Shown: one piece after another, positions 9,001 to 57,088 of the stretch
Layout of the letters: every line of letters starts with the position of its first letter
Numbering within the stretch: the first letter of the stretch is position 1
IMG/VR virus record: IMGVR_UViG_3300044729_003129
Coordinates: 1-64,000 of that record
DNA: 64,000 nucleotides
Source of the DNA: a virus
Reading direction: 5' to 3' (one strand)
Made by a program: the position numbers and the translations under genes
Notes under the pieces: model-generated
What the model was told of the DNA's origin: nothing
Database searches by the model: none
The model's input: only the letters and a program-made list of their open reading frames with translations

Positions 9001-9327
9001 TGGTGGATGTGTGGAGGATCGAACTCCAGTCCATGACTTCTCGACAATATATTTCTACAATTTATTGATTGATGTTAGGACAATCACAACCTAGATTGTT
9101 GTCGAGCAATCCCGCATAACATTTCGATGCTATGAGTCTATTATATTTTCGATATACAACTATCCGACCCTCCTCTATGCCAACACACTGCATCGGAGTC
9201 GATGCGTTGGTGCGGTTATGCCGCGAGAGCTAGTGTATCTTTTTCGTTTTTCTCTTGCACTTAGAGTCGTGCAGACTGTGCACTGCATATATTGTTTCAA
9301 CAGTCATGTCGAAACCATGTCACACCC
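9001..9327 (-). ncRNA. ssrA: tmRNA (transfer-messenger RNA)
   Basis: 327 nt. 5' end GGGTGTGACATGGTTTCGAC is the classical tmRNA start; 3' end GGACTGGAGTTCGATCCTCC ... CACATCC-A-CCA gives the tRNA-like T-arm, an acceptor stem pairing with GGGTGTG (one G-U) and an encoded CCA. The tag frame (9260 to 9216) reads ...QEKNEKDTLALAA-stop; the ALAA-type end is the proteolysis tag. It is a one-piece (not permuted) molecule. The resume codon is uncertain: the frame opens after an in-frame TAA with GTG. Role: rescue of ribosomes stalled on broken mRNA, likely abundant during infection. Phage tmRNAs are known but uncommon. Confidence 0.92.
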
Positions 9328-49673: not shown

Positions 49674-50189
49674 CTATTTATACTCTTTCAACAATGAACA
49701 GTTTTCAAAAAATGCCATATAGAGTTCAAGTTCGTATTCATCCGCTTCCTTTTCCCACGGAGCAGAGTCATAGTCATATTCTGAACAGTAGACTCCTTTC
49801 CATCGGGCACCTTCGTTGTCGCCGCTATAAAGGACAAGCTCTCTTCGAACATACTGCTTAAGATGAACCATTTCATGTGCTAGTATCGTTAACATGAGAT
49901 GATATGAATCACTTTTATTGAGTCTTACAATATAGTCAATGTCTGGTTCATCGACTCCACATTGACAACAGTCACCATGCACACGTTCAGATTCTGACAA
50001 ATTATCAATAAGTTGAATTACTATGCGTATCTTTCGAATGCGTGGACACAGTGTTTTTAGATAAAAATATGCAGCATTTTTTATAAGATTGTAAAGGCGG
50101 CGGTCACGTCTGGCGCCATGTACCTTGATACTTATCATTCTAAAGCTACTTATAAAAAAACTGGGATCCCTAAAATAGAGGTCTAGCAT
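49674..50189 (-). CDS. SprT-like zinc metallopeptidase
   Basis: 171 aa. LAHEMVHLKQYVRREL is the HExxH zinc site; a downstream Glu-rich segment (WEKEADEYELELY) supplies the third ligand as in SprT/wss1-type proteins. ATG at 50138 is an alternative start. Substrate unknown. Confidence 0.75.
   Translation of the reverse strand: MLDLYFRDPSFFISSFRMISIKVHGARRDRRLYNLIKNAAYFYLKTLCPRIRKIRIVIQLIDNLSESERVHGDCCQCGVDEPDIDYIVRLNKSDSYHLMLTILAHEMVHLKQYVRRELVLYSGDNEGARWKGVYCSEYDYDSAPWEKEADEYELELYMAFFENCSLLKEYK
49675..49682 (-). promoter_or_regulatory. late promoter
   Basis: TATAAATA, 7 nt before ATG 49667; it overlaps the end of the metallopeptidase gene. Confidence 0.75.
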
Positions 50190-50209
50190 GATTGAGACTT
50201 ACGCGGTTT

Positions 50210-50217
50210 TATAAATA
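50210..50217 (+). promoter_or_regulatory. late promoter of the GIY-YIG gene, plus strand
   Basis: TATAAATA then TAATT then ATG 50223; identical over 16 nt to the promoter-start of the Vsr-like gene at 18267. Confidence 0.75.
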
Positions 50218-50222
50218 TAATT

Positions 50223-50924
50223 ATGTATTATTATCTATATAAAATCACAAATATGACCAATAATAATATCTATATTGGTGTTCATAGCACAGCAGATTTA
50301 AATGATGGTTACTTTGGGTCTGGTAAACGTTTAATATATGCTATTAAAAAATACGGAAAGAATATATTTAAAAAAGAAATCCTTGAATTTTTTAATTCTT
50401 CAGAAGAAATGTTTGATGCTGAACGCAGAACAGTAAATGAAGAATTTGTCAAAAGATCTGACACATATAATATTAAAGAAGGGGGAAGAGGAAATACTAG
50501 TAACGGAAGTAAAGTTTTATGGGAAAATGAGGAATATAGACAAAAAGTTTTAGAAAGATCATTTTCAAAGTTTTGGGATAATCCAGAACATAAAGAAAAA
50601 TTACGAGAAGTACAAAAAACTGAAAAATACAAGGAAAAATTAAGTGCTGCAACTAAAATTAGTGCAAATAGACCAGATAAAATATTACGTACATCAGAAA
50701 CATCTAAAGAAAGATGGAAAGACGAATCATATCGTAAAAATATGTCGATCAAGACAGCTAATTTTATGAAAGGAACTAGGTATATTCACAATTTATCTTT
50801 AGAACAAAATAAAAAGGTATCAAGCAATGAACTTGATACCTTTTTAAATAAAGGTTGGGTTTTAGGATTAAATCTAAAGTTTAGCAAAAAACTGAAGAAG
50901 CAACGTGAAGAGCAGCAAGACTAA
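50223..50924 (+). CDS. GIY-YIG homing endonuclease
   Basis: 233 aa. GIY-YIG domain MYYYLYKITNMTNNNIYIGV, then GSGKRLIYAIKKYGKNIF and EEMFDAERRTVNEEF with the catalytic Glu. NUMOD3-like repeats follow (NPEHKEKLREVQK, TSETSKERWKDESYRKN). Inserted between two minus-strand genes; its 3' end overlaps the ATPase gene by 44 nt antisense. Confidence 0.85.
   Translation: MYYYLYKITNMTNNNIYIGVHSTADLNDGYFGSGKRLIYAIKKYGKNIFKKEILEFFNSSEEMFDAERRTVNEEFVKRSDTYNIKEGGRGNTSNGSKVLWENEEYRQKVLERSFSKFWDNPEHKEKLREVQKTEKYKEKLSAATKISANRPDKILRTSETSKERWKDESYRKNMSIKTANFMKGTRYIHNLSLEQNKKVSSNELDTFLNKGWVLGLNLKFSKKLKKQREEQQD
50812..50849. terminator. bidirectional terminator inside a coding region
   Basis: AAAAAGGTATCAAG-CAATGAA-CTTGATACCTTTTTA: 9-bp stem with A/T flanks on both strands, within the endonuclease codons KKVSSNELDTF. 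It would stop the minus-strand ATPase message just after its gene and trim the endonuclease message. Confidence 0.75.
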
Positions 50925-52479
50925 TTGCAAAAAATCCAAGTAATGGAGTAGCGTAGGACTCGATCATACGAGCAAGGTCACCATCAGATACTTCAACGCC
51001 GGCAGCAAGTGCGCCTGCTGCCATATTTAAGCCGCGTGATAGTTTACGAAGGTTAGCACTCTGTTTGCTTTTGCCTTTACGAAGCAAATCAACAACATGC
51101 AAACGAGCTTTTTGATCAAGTGAAAGACCGTCTTCAAGCTTCATATCTCCTACAATCTTTTCCATAAAGTCATAGATTTCAACTTCAGTAGGATCGATGT
51201 TGATGATAAAAGCACGTGTACGTAGTGCACCATCTGGATCAAGTTTGTCAAGGTTAAGGTTTGAGATAAAGATAATTTTGCCAGTAAATTCAAAGTAACG
51301 TGGAATTAATCCTTGATCGATAATTTCGTCATCGCTCATGTCGTCTTCTGGATCAACAACATTTTTACCCATCTTGTTCCAAACGAGCTTGCGAATCTTT
51401 TTGGTATCAGTAGCAGCCTTTAACAGGTTACGAGCTTCTTGATCACCGAGTGCGTCGTCACTGTCATCAAAGAAAACAATATCATTTTTGTAACGGAACA
51501 ACAATGAATAGAGACCAGCAGCACTTGCGGAACCGGTATTTTTAAAATAACCATTGCCATCGCGCAGTCCCATATCAGCAAGTATCTTTTCAGTTGTATG
51601 AGTTTTACCAACTCCACCCTTACCAGAAACAAAGAGTGCATTTGATGCGCCGCTAACAGTAAGTTTAACTAGGTTTTCAAGATCTTTTAGCTGAGCTTCA
51701 AATGATAGGCGCTCACGATCTGCTTCAATTTGTTCTACTTCCGGAGAATAACTGTATTTTTCTTTGGCTGCACCTTTAGAAACGACACCGGCTACGACTC
51801 CAATACGAGCCATAATCTTTCCCTTTTCAGCTTTGATCTGCTTTAGGTCTTTTGCCTTGCCAACCCAGACATACTTGATGCCTTGCTTTTCAATATAGTT
51901 TGGATATGCTGCCGAAAGAGCGTCAAAAATCTTGACTCCAGGAATGCCGTACATGCTGTAAATCTTACTTTTTACAAAGTTTGGGTCAACAAGATAGTCA
52001 GCAATCTCATCAAAAATAGCTTCAAAGTCATGACTGCTACGTGCTTCATTTAGCACTCCTTCATAGAGTGGCACCTCGTCAGGCATAGACATAATCTTGC
52101 CAAGTTCAACAGTGCCTGCAATTATAATATCAGCAACAATTGGCAATGTCTTTACAAGAGAGACACTCTGATCAAATTCAATATGAAATGGAGTTGGGCT
52201 CTTACCATTCCAGTAATCAATAGATGTTAAGTTATTTAGACCAGCGAGCGAGCTTTGCACCCAATTGAAACGAATACTTTGGTTGCGCTTTGTAGTATAG
52301 AGACGTAGTCCAAAACCAGTGCCATTAGAATTCTTGTATTTTTCTAATCCAGGATATTTAAAAAATGTAGTACCAGTCTTTTTCTTAAGGTAGCGTTGAA
52401 TGATGAATGCTGCTTTTTCTACAGATGATGTAGAGAGCGCCTCTGTTAGGTAACGTTTAAATTCGGTTAGTTTTGACAT
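50881..52479 (-). CDS. AAA-type ATPase with capsid-targeting-like leader
   Basis: 532 aa. Leader MSKLTEFKRYLTE|A. N-terminal half unknown (two repeats on DYLVDPNFVKSKIYSMYG). ATPase core at about 275-420: Walker A LFVSGKGGVGKT, Walker B DIVFFDDSD, sensor IIFISNLN, arginine LRTRAF. The last 20 residues are hydrophobic (LLGFFAISLAALHVASSVFC) and partly antisense to the inserted endonuclease, so the C-terminus may have been altered by that insertion. Role unknown; late promoter. Confidence 0.75.
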   Translation of the reverse strand: MSKLTEFKRYLTEALSTSSVEKAAFIIQRYLKKKTGTTFFKYPGLEKYKNSNGTGFGLRLYTTKRNQSIRFNWVQSSLAGLNNLTSIDYWNGKSPTPFHIEFDQSVSLVKTLPIVADIIIAGTVELGKIMSMPDEVPLYEGVLNEARSSHDFEAIFDEIADYLVDPNFVKSKIYSMYGIPGVKIFDALSAAYPNYIEKQGIKYVWVGKAKDLKQIKAEKGKIMARIGVVAGVVSKGAAKEKYSYSPEVEQIEADRERLSFEAQLKDLENLVKLTVSGASNALFVSGKGGVGKTHTTEKILADMGLRDGNGYFKNTGSASAAGLYSLLFRYKNDIVFFDDSDDALGDQEARNLLKAATDTKKIRKLVWNKMGKNVVDPEDDMSDDEIIDQGLIPRYFEFTGKIIFISNLNLDKLDPDGALRTRAFIINIDPTEVEIYDFMEKIVGDMKLEDGLSLDQKARLHVVDLLRKGKSKQSANLRKLSRGLNMAAGALAAGVEVSDGDLARMIESYATPLLGFFAISLAALHVASSVFC

Positions 52480-52517: not shown

Positions 52518-53687
52518 TTACACCTTTATGTCACTATAATCTCTATTTTTTCGTTGACTATTAAATGGAGTGCTTACTACTGGAGAACTATCACCATCAT
52601 TGGTAATATTTGCCATAGGATCTGAAATATCATATAGTCTCATCTTGGAAAGATCAATTCCAATAGTAAATCGTTTATTGCTTGTTGGATCATTATAACG
52701 ATTCTTGAGTTGCTTAACCATAATCTGATTCATTTTGTCAAGTTGTTCAGTTCGAATAAATGCAAGCATCAAATCGGCCGTTGCGGGAAGTCCAAACGAT
52801 TCTGAGGTGTCAGTAATTTCTACATCTGAATTATTAAATCCTCCGCGAGTGACCTGAGTGGCACTCCAGATTGGAACATTAAACTCTACAGCAAGACCGC
52901 GAAGCTCCTCAGCAATACTCTTGATAAAACTATAGGTGTTGATGCTACCACTTAATCCTTTAACACGTGAAGATGCACAAATATTAAGATAATCTACATA
53001 TATGATATCGGGTTCAAACTTCTTTTTAAGTTTTAATTCGAGCAGCAGTGCTCTAAAGTGACCAACATGTGCCGCTGCAGTTGGATATTCCTTCACAATA
53101 AGTTTTCCATGAGTGCGTTTAGAGATGTCCTCTACACGAGAATGAAATTCGCGTTGAGACAGGTCTTTGATTTTATCAATTCGTATATCAAGCAAATTAG
53201 CATCAATACGTTCTGCAATACGCTCTTCTGCCATTTCAAGAGTAATATACAAGACATTTCGCCCTTGGGCAAGAGCAGCAGCAGCCATGTGACACATGCC
53301 TAAACTCTTGCCACAACCAGTGTTATGAGAAGAAACTCCATCGGTATAATAACGATGATTTTCATGATCAACAGTAATATCTACAATCGGTATTTGATTT
53401 CCTGTTTTTGTAACTATACCAATTTGATAACCGTCCTCAGTTAAATATTTTTGTTTTTTATGAACTAAATCTTTAGCATATTTCCAACCATCAATGGTTT
53501 CAAATAAATGATTTTCATTAACTCTAATAATTTTGCCGCTATTAAGCAATAAAACATATTCATCCCACATTCCTTTATCAATAAATGCTGACACAGGAAC
53601 ATATCCATCTGGAGAATGCACTTCTATTGAATAACCTTCGTTTAAAAGTGTTTCGATTTCTTTAATTGCAATAACTTTTTCTGTCAT
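52518..53687 (-). CDS. split intein C part fused to C-terminal gp41/DnaB helicase
   Basis: 389 aa. Residues 1-122 are an intein C fragment: block B-like VNENHLFET, block F VDITVDHENHRYYTDG, block G VSSHN ending in His-Asn. Residue 123 on is helicase: T-GCGKS (rest of the P-loop), NVLYITLEMAEERIAERI, IIYVDYLNIC (Walker B), WSATQVTRGG, ESFGLPATADL, VKQLKNRY. Trans-splicing with the product of 54484-55125 would rebuild A-G-T-G-C-G-K-S, an intact Walker A. Replicative 5'-3' helicase of T4 gp41 type. Confidence 0.92.
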   Translation of the reverse strand: MTEKVIAIKEIETLLNEGYSIEVHSPDGYVPVSAFIDKGMWDEYVLLLNSGKIIRVNENHLFETIDGWKYAKDLVHKKQKYLTEDGYQIGIVTKTGNQIPIVDITVDHENHRYYTDGVSSHNTGCGKSLGMCHMAAAALAQGRNVLYITLEMAEERIAERIDANLLDIRIDKIKDLSQREFHSRVEDISKRTHGKLIVKEYPTAAAHVGHFRALLLELKLKKKFEPDIIYVDYLNICASSRVKGLSGSINTYSFIKSIAEELRGLAVEFNVPIWSATQVTRGGFNNSDVEITDTSESFGLPATADLMLAFIRTEQLDKMNQIMVKQLKNRYNDPTSNKRFTIGIDLSKMRLYDISDPMANITNDGDSSPVVSTPFNSQRKNRDYSDIKV

Positions 53688-53701
53688 AAAATGTAAGTTT
53701 T

Positions 53702-53709
53702 TATAAATA
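53702..53709 (+). promoter_or_regulatory. late promoter, plus strand
   Basis: TATAAATA, 29 nt before ATG 53739. Confidence 0.65.
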
Positions 53710-53738
53710 TAATATTAGCCGGAACAGTATATAGTCTT

Positions 53739-54554
53739 ATGAAATTTTACTCTCAAATTTATTATAAACTTTGTAATGAAAATGTAAATAATAAAATTCA
53801 TTATTGTAAAGGATCAAATATACATAAACATCATATTATTCCGCGTCATGCTGGTGGAGGAGAAGACGAAAGCAATTTTACTTATCTTAGCATTAGACAA
53901 CATATAATTGCTCATTTTTTGTTGTGGAAAATGCATAGAATGGTTAATGATTTGCGATCAATGCAGATGTTAGGAGCAAAGTTAACGTATGAACAAAGGA
54001 GTATTGTTGGTAAATGGTGCTATGAAAATAAAATAGGAATGTTTTCATTTAGTAAAGAGAAAAAGGCAGAAATTTCACGCCGAAATGGTAAAATGTCAAA
54101 AGAAAAAGAAACTGGTATTCATAATCCGGAAAATTTTTCAAAATTTGCTTCACTTGGAGGAAAGGCTTCGATAATTTCGCCTAATAACCCATGGACATAT
54201 TGGGCTACTCCTGAAGGTAGATCAACACGAGCAAAGTTGGGTGGAAAATCACATCTCGGAAAATTATGGATCCACAAAGATGATGTCATAACACGTTGTC
54301 TGTATAACGAAATTAACGAAAAGATGGATAATGGATGGAAATATGGAATGAAAGATGGCGGAAGGGAATATGTAAACAACGGAGAAAAAACATTTCGAGT
54401 TGAGTCCGATAAAATATTTGACTTATTATTGCGAGGTTGGAAATTGGGAAAAGCGTCTAATTATAAACCAGATCGTAAACGTTCTAAGCATGAACTTTCT
54501 TATGCAGCTTTACTCGAACTTGAGTGTCAGGATGAACACAGCCGGCGAGAATAA
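53739..54554 (+). CDS. HNH homing endonuclease between split-intein halves
   Basis: 271 aa. HNH core HKHHIIPRHAGGGEDESNFT, YLSIRQHIIAHFLLWKMH; the C-terminal region has repeats (WIHKDDVITRCLYNEINEKM, VESDKIFDLLLRGWKLGK) typical of phage HNH homing enzymes. On the opposite strand to the helicase genes; its last 71 nt overlap, antisense, the 3' end of the helicase N part including all intein N codons. Presumably targets intein-free helicase genes. Confidence 0.85.
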   Translation: MKFYSQIYYKLCNENVNNKIHYCKGSNIHKHHIIPRHAGGGEDESNFTYLSIRQHIIAHFLLWKMHRMVNDLRSMQMLGAKLTYEQRSIVGKWCYENKIGMFSFSKEKKAEISRRNGKMSKEKETGIHNPENFSKFASLGGKASIISPNNPWTYWATPEGRSTRAKLGGKSHLGKLWIHKDDVITRCLYNEINEKMDNGWKYGMKDGGREYVNNGEKTFRVESDKIFDLLLRGWKLGKASNYKPDRKRSKHELSYAALLELECQDEHSRRE

Positions 54555-55125
54555 TGTTTAGCGTCTTACGTGGAATGCCTCCGCCAGTAATTGTATTAAA
54601 CATATCCAAGTCAAAGGGAATTTTATCTTCTGTCTTGTGATAAAACTCATAGCGACCATCTACGTTTTCAAGATAATCATGCCCAACGTTTGTATCAAAT
54701 GTTACGCTTAGCGCCTTACTAAGTATACTTGGAATTGCTCCTTCTGCTTTGTCAGGAGACTTGCCATCAATAATAGAAACTGCTTCAATAATAGCAAGAT
54801 GAACTGCTCGATCTTTACACCACTTTTCAGTTTGAACAAGTAACCATTCATGCTCAACTGAAAAATTTTCATTTAACGTTGAGATTGATTGTGCAATTGC
54901 GCCTGCGTCTGTACGACGAGTATGTTCGGACTGTTGAAATTCAATTGCTAACGATGATGAATTTGGGAGTTTATTATACTTTGTTATAAACTGCAATATA
55001 AGACCATATATCGCCTTATGATGTCCTTCAAAATATTCTGGTTTTAGGTGTGGTAGGGTTTTACGACAAAATGCTTCGTTATTGACTAGATTTTTAATTA
55101 TGATGTCTTGAAGATTATTCTCCAT
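54484..55125 (-). CDS. N-terminal gp41/DnaB helicase fused to split intein N part
   Basis: 213 aa. Residues 1-195 are the DnaB-type N-terminal domain and linker (LKPEYFEGHHKAIYGLILQF; FDLDMFNTITGGGIPRKTLN, then IILAG). At residue 196 the helicase is interrupted just inside the P-loop by C-VHPDTQVRVKLHKKVHA-stop, an 18-residue intein N fragment starting with catalytic Cys. Partner: 52518-53687. Confidence 0.92.
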   Translation of the reverse strand: MENNLQDIIIKNLVNNEAFCRKTLPHLKPEYFEGHHKAIYGLILQFITKYNKLPNSSSLAIEFQQSEHTRRTDAGAIAQSISTLNENFSVEHEWLLVQTEKWCKDRAVHLAIIEAVSIIDGKSPDKAEGAIPSILSKALSVTFDTNVGHDYLENVDGRYEFYHKTEDKIPFDLDMFNTITGGGIPRKTLNIILAGCVHPDTQVRVKLHKKVHA

Positions 55126-56023: not shown

Positions 56024-57088
56024 TCAGACTTCTTCGTCTTCTACAATTGGGTCTGAATCGCCATCAATCATGTCTCGCAGACCAATTGTATACTTTTGTT
56101 TGATATGTGAGGCAAATGTTGTCTTTGTAAAGATAGTCTCCCAAAATTCTTTTGTCAGCGTTTGTGCTGCGCGAAGGTTTCCTGTAAGTTCAGTTTTTGT
56201 CGCTGGATCGTATGCAGTATACCAGCCATTTTTAGGCTTGACTACGAAACCGCCTTCAAGCGCAATATCAAGCAACCCACTCCATTTTTGAACTCCACCT
56301 TCCCAACTAACGCTGATTGGAATCTTGCTCTTTTCTTTTACAAATCGAGACTTTTCAACATTGATGATAAAGTGATAACCTTGGATTTCAGTGCCATCTT
56401 TATCTTGCTGACGACCAATAATCCAAACATTGTCAGCGCTATACATAATTCCTGTTCCACCGCTCACCACAGCCTTGCTAAACATTTCTTGAGTCTGATA
56501 GGTATGATTGATTGCAAGAAGTGGAATGTTTTTCATTGTCAGGTAGGGGGTTATCATACGAAACAATCCTTTAAGAGCTTTAGCGCGAGTCATATCGGCA
56601 ACACTCTTTTCATTCATCGCATCTTCCAATTCCTTCTTACTTGCAAGATTACCAACACTGTCAATAACAATAATTACTTTATCTTTGCGATCCATCTGCT
56701 CAAGTTGATTAACAATATCAAACTTAAGTTCTTCAATGTTTTTAATTGGAATATGCAGCACTCGCGAAGTGTCAATTCCAAAGCTTTCAAAGTATTGCTG
56801 AGGAGAACCAAATTCGCTGTCATAAAACATAAGGCACGCGTCGGTATGTTTTTTAAGGTATGCACCTGCCATAAGCAATGCAAAGCTCGTCTTAAAGTGC
56901 TTTGATGGGCCGGCAAGTACAGTAAGACCACTCGTCAGACCACCATCAATACTGCCACTTAGAGCAACGTTGACCATTGGCACAGATGTAGATGTAACGT
57001 CTTTTTCAGAATAAAAGTCGCTGTCAGCAAGGACATCAGCTTCTTTAATTCTGCAATTCTTTTTTAATTTTTCAAGTACAGATGACAT
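56024..57088 (-). CDS. uvsX: UvsX/RecA-like recombinase
   Basis: 354 aa. Walker A AGPSKHFKTS, CLMFYDSEFGSPQQYFESFG, Walker B VIIVIDSVGNLASKKELEDA, LLAINHTYQTQEMFSKAVVS, GGTGIMYSADNVWIIGRQQD, and a C-terminal acidic tail VEDEEV. T4 UvsX-type strand-exchange protein. Not interrupted by an intein. Leader carries AAGGAAA, a plausible Shine-Dalgarno. Confidence 0.92.
   Translation of the reverse strand: MSSVLEKLKKNCRIKEADVLADSDFYSEKDVTSTSVPMVNVALSGSIDGGLTSGLTVLAGPSKHFKTSFALLMAGAYLKKHTDACLMFYDSEFGSPQQYFESFGIDTSRVLHIPIKNIEELKFDIVNQLEQMDRKDKVIIVIDSVGNLASKKELEDAMNEKSVADMTRAKALKGLFRMITPYLTMKNIPLLAINHTYQTQEMFSKAVVSGGTGIMYSADNVWIIGRQQDKDGTEIQGYHFIINVEKSRFVKEKSKIPISVSWEGGVQKWSGLLDIALEGGFVVKPKNGWYTAYDPATKTELTGNLRAAQTLTKEFWETIFTKTTFASHIKQKYTIGLRDMIDGDSDPIVEDEEV

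Follow-up and report, generated by a model that had tools for sequence, protein, structure and literature searches.

A mobile split-intein element in a T4-like phage helicase, with an antisense HNH gene whose late promoter overlaps an imperfect mimic of the empty insertion site

The origin and rejoining of split inteins have usually been argued from single snapshots. According to the work of Dassa et al. in 2009, genes of T4-like phages are reportedly broken by split inteins with a freestanding endonuclease gene between the halves; these are said to be canonical splits (intein-N of about 90 amino acids, aa), and their endonucleases to belong to another family and to lie mostly in sense. Among atypical split inteins, VidaL and PolB16 share the break S1, whereas AceL-TerL and GOS-TerL break at S2, after the first helix (PMC13014065). 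In T4, the endonuclease I-TevI represses itself through an operator that overlaps its late promoter and resembles its homing site at 15 of 20 nucleotides (nt) (PMC2988022), and homing endonucleases tolerate wobble changes in their targets (PMC3943268). Here, we describe a 64,000-nt stretch of viral DNA (positions 1 to 64,000 of IMG/VR record IMGVR_UViG_3300044729_003129, hereafter the window), in which the gene of a replicative helicase is interrupted inside its P-loop by a mobile element consisting of a split intein and an antisense HNH homing-endonuclease gene. The new observation is that the late-promoter leader of the HNH gene contains a sequence that imperfectly imitates the empty insertion site, with codons for NIILAGT.

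The virus record to which the window belongs measures 173.8 kb and carries T4-like replication genes, including the gp41-like helicase. Two open reading frames (ORFs) encode this one protein, with an endonuclease ORF between them, and the break (...NIILAG/TGCGKSLG...) lies inside the Walker A motif (Table 1). Against PHROG 19 (DnaB-like helicase), the N protein covers positions 160-361 and the C protein positions 362-588; because these matches adjoin, the halves join without a missing residue, and the joined helicase is predicted to comprise 195 + 267 = 462 aa. The intein-C residues run MTEKV...HRYYTDGVSSHN, ending in SSHN, and are followed by T(+1)GCGKS. ORF inspection and the PHROG 19 matches bear out the coordinates, the ORF lengths, and the Thr at +1 that had been proposed in an earlier note on this DNA. 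Its claim that 71 nt code on both strands, with the 3' end of the HNH gene spanning every intein-N codon, also holds, and this overlap is limited to the window's clade, other clades having 4-35 nt or none. A survey of viral contigs by three protein scans and one DNA-pattern scan yielded 76 distinct elements inserted at precisely the same helicase position. Of these, 7 are contiguous inteins of 136-147 aa and the other 69 are split; an antisense HNH gene related to that of the window is present in 48 of the 69. Chance is not the explanation, because dozens of independent contigs show the same arrangement and intact empty alleles are found as well.

Table 1. Features of the interrupted helicase locus and its surroundings in the window
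Feature	Position	Strand	Remarks
N-terminal helicase gene, 213 aa	54484-55125	(-)	195-aa N-extein ending IILAG, 18-aa intein-N, and stop; phrog_19 E 1.1e-38
Intein-N CVHPDTQVRVKLHKKVHA and stop	54484-54540	(-)	Cys1 nucleophile; S1-type split; 18 aa
C-terminal helicase gene, 389 aa	52518-53687	(-)	Intein-C of 122 aa and C-extein TGCGKS... of 267 aa; DnaB_C E 4.9e-16, phrog_19 E 4.2e-75
Intein-C, 122 aa	53322-53687	(-)	Blocks B, F, G: VNENHLFET, VDITVDHENHRYYTDGVSSHN; matches 6vgv
+1 Thr codon of C-extein	53319-53321	(-)	Insertion point AG/TGCGKS inside Walker A
HNH homing-endonuclease gene, 271 aa, 816 nt	53739-54554	(+)	Antisense to helicase; phrog_655 E 1.3e-15
Antisense overlap, 71 nt	54484-54554		HNH 3' end over every intein-N codon
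Whole mobile element, exactly 1219 nt	53322-54540	(-)	Intein-N codons, antisense HNH gene, and intein-C codons
T4-type late promoter TATAAATA of HNH gene	53702-53709	(+)	Ends 29 nt before HNH start codon
Homing-site mimic ATAAATATAATATTAGCCGGAACAG, reads INIILAGT	53703-53727	(+)	Overlaps late promoter; candidate autorepression operator
UvsX gene	56024-57088		T4-like replication gene; uninterrupted in window

The window contains 24 copies of the late-promoter sequence TATAAATA, where 5.4 would be expected, and this sequence is exact in 43 of the 48 antisense-HNH leaders. Read in the direction of the HNH gene, the leader runs ATA AAT ATA ATA TTA GCC GGA ACA G (I N I I L A G T), and the empty helicase site, ACGCTAAACATTATTCTCGCCGGCACTGGTTGTGGC, reads CTA AAC ATT ATT CTC GCC GGC / ACT GGT (L N I I L A G / T G). 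As with I-TevI, a homing-site look-alike overlaps the endonuclease's own late promoter. Across 14 clade representatives, look-alike and site agreed at 85, 111, and 21 of 126 bases each for codon positions 1, 2, and 3, respectively. When scored with a profile of the site, the leaders of the window clade (except the lowest two, L022 and L023) and that of L264 exceeded all 7680 control windows. The HNH leaders also stood apart from other TATAAATA contexts of the same contigs in two rank tests (p=3.8e-13 with 175 contexts and 4.2e-10 with 138), although these p-values overstate the independence of the leaders because the leaders are phylogenetically related; the sole two high-scoring controls in the first test, L289 and L293, belong to the same element family. 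In three sense-oriented HNH genes (L268, L283, and L208), the look-alike is present and inverted relative to the gene, an arrangement that fits a DNA-binding site more readily than the remains of a reading frame. Four further split loci in these phages (gp41-1-type with GIY-YIG, Vsr-like, and UvsX HNH) served as a negative control, and the endonuclease leaders there contain no mimic of their own site.

Taken together with the I-TevI precedent and the tolerance of wobble changes, the look-alike leads us to infer that the HNH protein may repress its own gene in an I-TevI-like manner; as a by-product, the P-loop site would be identified as the HNH target. A possible but doubtful alternative is that the look-alike is a relic or by-product, either a captured piece of the helicase gene or a chance outcome of a late promoter and a purine-rich ribosome-binding site. 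In L008, L015, L018, and their kin, it is in frame with the HNH gene (INIILAGTG...M), its AGGA-like parts could serve ribosome binding, and it is degraded in L065, L275, and L280. A relic would be expected to decay evenly, yet codon position 2 has been kept and position 3 lost. Its inversion in sense-oriented elements also argues against this origin, as do the 175 and 138 other promoter contexts of the same phages, which are unlike the site apart from the two family members named above. In L264 (3969 region), the leader mimic retains the canonical INVILAGTG despite a resident helicase that has diverged to LNLVMAG/TA.

The uninterrupted helicase site was found in ten contigs (L082-L091), each without exactly the 1219-nt element. 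Their N-extein protein is 100% identical to that of the window, and identity in the flanking DNA amounts to 99.0-99.4% across the 1.2-1.9 kb immediately to the left (in L091, 98.4% across 3.9 kb) and to 95-99% (95.5-98.8%) on the right. Because near-identical contigs with an empty site differ by exactly this length, comparison of the alleles indicates that the element is mobile. Between the window and L007, the element DNA is 94-95% identical, and the adjoining exteins are 80-85% identical, falling to 62% (left) and 75% (right) farther out; this gradient is the pattern expected after homing with co-conversion of flanks. The HNH protein, which is predicted to cleave the empty site, has invariant H and N residues in addition to its phrog_655 match, and its Pfam HNH match scored 18 bits, below the cut-off of 21.4. 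It is an HNH protein without a GIY-YIG domain, and would resemble I-TevI in its working without being a member of that family. We consider it unlikely that it is an independent "intronless" homing gene, one for which the intein linker is merely a safe insertion point and which cuts elsewhere (for example, contiguous inteins or a neighboring gene) while the intein moves by passive recombination. The same linker has been entered and split in sense by at least three other endonuclease types (L225, L293, and L208/L268/L283), and freestanding endonucleases of T4 often cut far from their own gene (PMC2988022). However, in a scan with the HNH protein itself, 22 of 22 close homologs lay between these helicase halves, the leader mimics the P-loop insertion site and not the intein linker, and the element-versus-flank identity gradients are centered on the insertion.

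By its motifs and break position, the intein is an atypical split intein of the VidaL type (split S1) and not AceL-like (split S2). The earlier note had assigned it to a rare VidaL/AceL class; its reading of the P-loop insert as an atypical split intein of the VidaL class stands, the likeness to AceL does not, and the presumed rarity gives way to 76 distinct elements that make it common in environmental T4-like phages. The same note regarded an alignment lacking intein motif residues as decisive against an intein, but the residues of blocks B, F, and G proved invariant across 20 diverse members. The residues of class 1 HINT domains, namely Cys1, the block B His (NENHLF), and SSHN/T, are likewise invariant in the alignments. 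VidaL (6vgv) was matched over the full intein-C (phmmer, E 3.5e-10), and a profile of contiguous homologs matched it at 1.2e-15, collinear through the N part. An AlphaFold model of L016, a contiguous relative with the same intein (86% aa identity to the window), reached a predicted local distance difference test (pLDDT) score of 89.8. Its 60 PDB matches at E<=0.001 are headed by an intein, in agreement with a HINT fold, and the best match is VidaL (E 2.8e-12, template modeling score, TM, 0.84). The break between intein-N and intein-C maps to the turn between strands 13-18 and 23-27 of this model, that is, to S1, after beta-strand 2, and the 18-aa intein-N falls within the range of about 15-20 aa for S1; it measures 14-21 aa across the 69 split relatives. 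In a cultured-phage collection, the closest intein-C relatives were 37% identical and lay in UvsX/RecA or terminase, with no helicase among the matches listed.

The conserved residues and the modeled fold point to trans-splicing of the helicase halves. That the helicase is broken, or works as two subunits without splicing in a decaying gene, appears very improbable. Two-piece phage enzymes do exist, a split ribonucleotide reductase being cited in PMC10448857, but here Walker A itself is divided and would be restored only by splicing, the intein catalytic residues are invariant, and the exteins are 99-100% identical to intact alleles. Metagenomic contigs are the only source, yet the 76 distinct versions come from many metagenomes and agree exactly in their boundaries, which makes an assembly or chimera artifact a negligible concern.

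The direction of change between contiguous and split states was examined on an intein tree, on which the contiguous state is scattered and 6 changes are needed, 4 of them forced by well-supported branches. In the window clade, the split state with HNH is common to lineages that are 80-85% identical. The contiguous L016 and L017, without HNH, share 96-97% intein DNA identity with the split L015 and are nested inside this clade; grouping its nine split members to the exclusion of L016 was rejected (approximately unbiased, AU, test, p=0.0057). Since L016 and L017 nest within split lineages with HNH, the contiguous form in this clade looks secondary. The simplest and preferred reading, although not proven, is that L016 lost the HNH gene and the two parts of its intein fused again in frame; alternatively, a contiguous relative could have supplied the sequence through gene conversion, and the two routes are jointly preferred over retention. 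The L016 linker was also considered as a retained ancestral linker, given its resemblance to that of L028 (RHSNCKVE vs RISNFEEK), but this is disfavored because the tree nests L016 among split forms. L219 and L225 are contiguous and split forms of one intein, and L225 is divided at the same point by a sense-oriented endonuclease of a different kind; more than one independent split has therefore occurred in this linker. The earlier view, in which a contiguous intein and its homing gene later became fractured, is thus not supported as stated. Nor is the HNH a homing-endonuclease domain that escaped from the intein; its gene stands free, has a late promoter of its own, and lies antisense in a linker also entered by unrelated sense endonucleases.

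The other split elements show further contents of the linker. Four carry the related HNH gene in sense (L208, L210, L268, and L283), and two have unrelated sense ORFs between the halves (L225 and L293). Most of the remainder have short gaps, several of which still contain remnants of the HNH gene or of its promoter (L044, L049, L282, and L289). One clade with an identical intein protein forms a decay series from L052 (HNH, gap of 704 nt) through L057 (387) and L049/L053 (169) to L044 (34). Extra sense ORFs (106-278 aa) lie between the N half and HNH in L051, L060, L062-L064, L068, L074, L075, L078, and L079; four of seven tested match phrog_3708 (unknown function). The split thus enables the locus to acquire cargo genes. 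The helicase is in three pieces in L018:4513-8768 (also L019-L021) and L066:607-4320, where the P-loop split intein with antisense HNH is joined by a second split intein, located at TSE/SFGLPA with a Vsr-like endonuclease in L018 and of the gp41-1 type with GIY-YIG in L066. L119-L121 apparently have only the second interruption.

Overall, we consider it probable that the locus is a mobile composite split-intein element in a T4-like helicase, with a homing HNH endonuclease and self-control. The helicase would be made as two proteins that both carry a portion of the VidaL-type HINT domain and that associate and trans-splice by means of Cys1, the terminal Asn, and Thr+1, thereby rebuilding Walker A. 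The HNH protein would recognize the uninterrupted P-loop site and cut intein-less genomes in mixed infections, and repair would copy all 1219 nt. Its gene would be transcribed from its own late promoter, and the endonuclease would probably bind the overlapping mimic without efficient cutting and so repress itself. Because trans-splicing tolerates separation, the linker could act as a landing site that several kinds of endonucleases and cargo genes enter, decay in, and leave; loss events would leave a split intein without endonuclease or, as in L016, a re-joined contiguous intein. By a narrow margin of belief, we also favor the more specific proposal that the HNH protein recognizes the P-loop site by codon positions 1-2 and, through a wobble-scrambled copy of that site, represses its own late promoter, which would be an independently evolved I-TevI-like circuit in an intein, together with repeated interconversion of contiguous, split-plus-endonuclease, split-only, and re-joined states.

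Besides the relatedness of the leaders in the rank tests, several points weigh against this scheme. Splicing, cleavage, and repression are all predictions here. The fold was predicted for the contiguous relative L016, not for the window's two chains together, and a structure model of the HNH protein gave no significant match among PDB structures. The mimic is imperfect, with 16 of 22 nt agreeing in the window and a last codon of GTA, not GGN. About one third of the antisense-HNH leaders (L027, L037, L042, L052, and kin) have a hairpin instead of the mimic, so that autorepression would not be universal. The hairpin leaders (L027, L037, L042, L043, L035, L052, L054, L202, L286, and L287) share the motif UCGCG...CCAC...CUCUAA and show compensatory changes in 7 of 10 pairs. 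No Rfam family matched them, and a purpose-built model found the hairpin in 17 places. The hairpin also precedes an endonuclease-like ORF elsewhere (L045:2225-2294) and an HNH gene in another element (L294:2667-2741). This conserved leader is possibly a different control device.

In the window, a GIY-YIG ORF at 50223-50924 (+) runs antisense over the 3' end of a 532-aa ORF at 50881-52479 (-). In L083, L086, and L088, the 781-bp GIY-YIG segment (50170-50950) is replaced by 46 bp, and the ORF there ends normally at 510 aa; this segment is a second mobile endonuclease. In relatives (L083:763-3102 and L016:2136-4467), a canonical split intein accompanied by a sense HNH gene interrupts UvsX, and the corresponding site in the window, at about 56455, is empty. 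The start codon of the UvsX-intein HNH lies in a hairpin with the late promoter in the hairpin loop, as for I-TevI. An ARAGORN call of a transfer-messenger RNA at 9001-9327, with an odd 27-residue tag, is probably a false positive.

A single site with empty (95-99% identical), contiguous, split-plus-endonuclease, decaying, and re-joined versions makes the direction and mechanism of change testable. Without any experiment, the homing-site mimic points to the target of the endonuclease; it also suggests that self-control arose in parallel in the endonucleases of inteins and of introns. Moreover, the many natural S1-type split inteins with N parts of 14-21 residues would be useful for protein semisynthesis.

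Among known systems, VidaL (PDB 6vgv/6vgw; 16-aa intein-N, S1), whose resident gene is presumably a T4-like helicase, is the best structural match. Both inteins are Cys-dependent, with an intein-N of 16-18 aa across the two, and they are collinear over their whole length with the split right after beta-strand 2, although they share only about 28% identity. AceL-TerL and GOS-TerL also combine a short intein-N with environmental phage genes, but they are split at S2 and reside in terminase, whereas the window intein is split at S1 and resides in a helicase. From the fractured genes reported by Dassa et al., the locus differs in its S1 split, antisense HNH, P-loop site, and promoter-overlapping mimic. 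The comparison with I-TevI of the T4 td intron (PMC2988022, PMC3943268) sets a GIY-YIG enzyme in a group I intron, with proven autorepression, beside an HNH enzyme in a split intein, for which autorepression is predicted. In both cases, an endonuclease gene lies inside a splicing element, its 3' end runs into essential splicing sequence, and its late promoter is overlapped by a homing-site look-alike, matching at 15 of 20 nt in T4 and 16 of 22 in the window.
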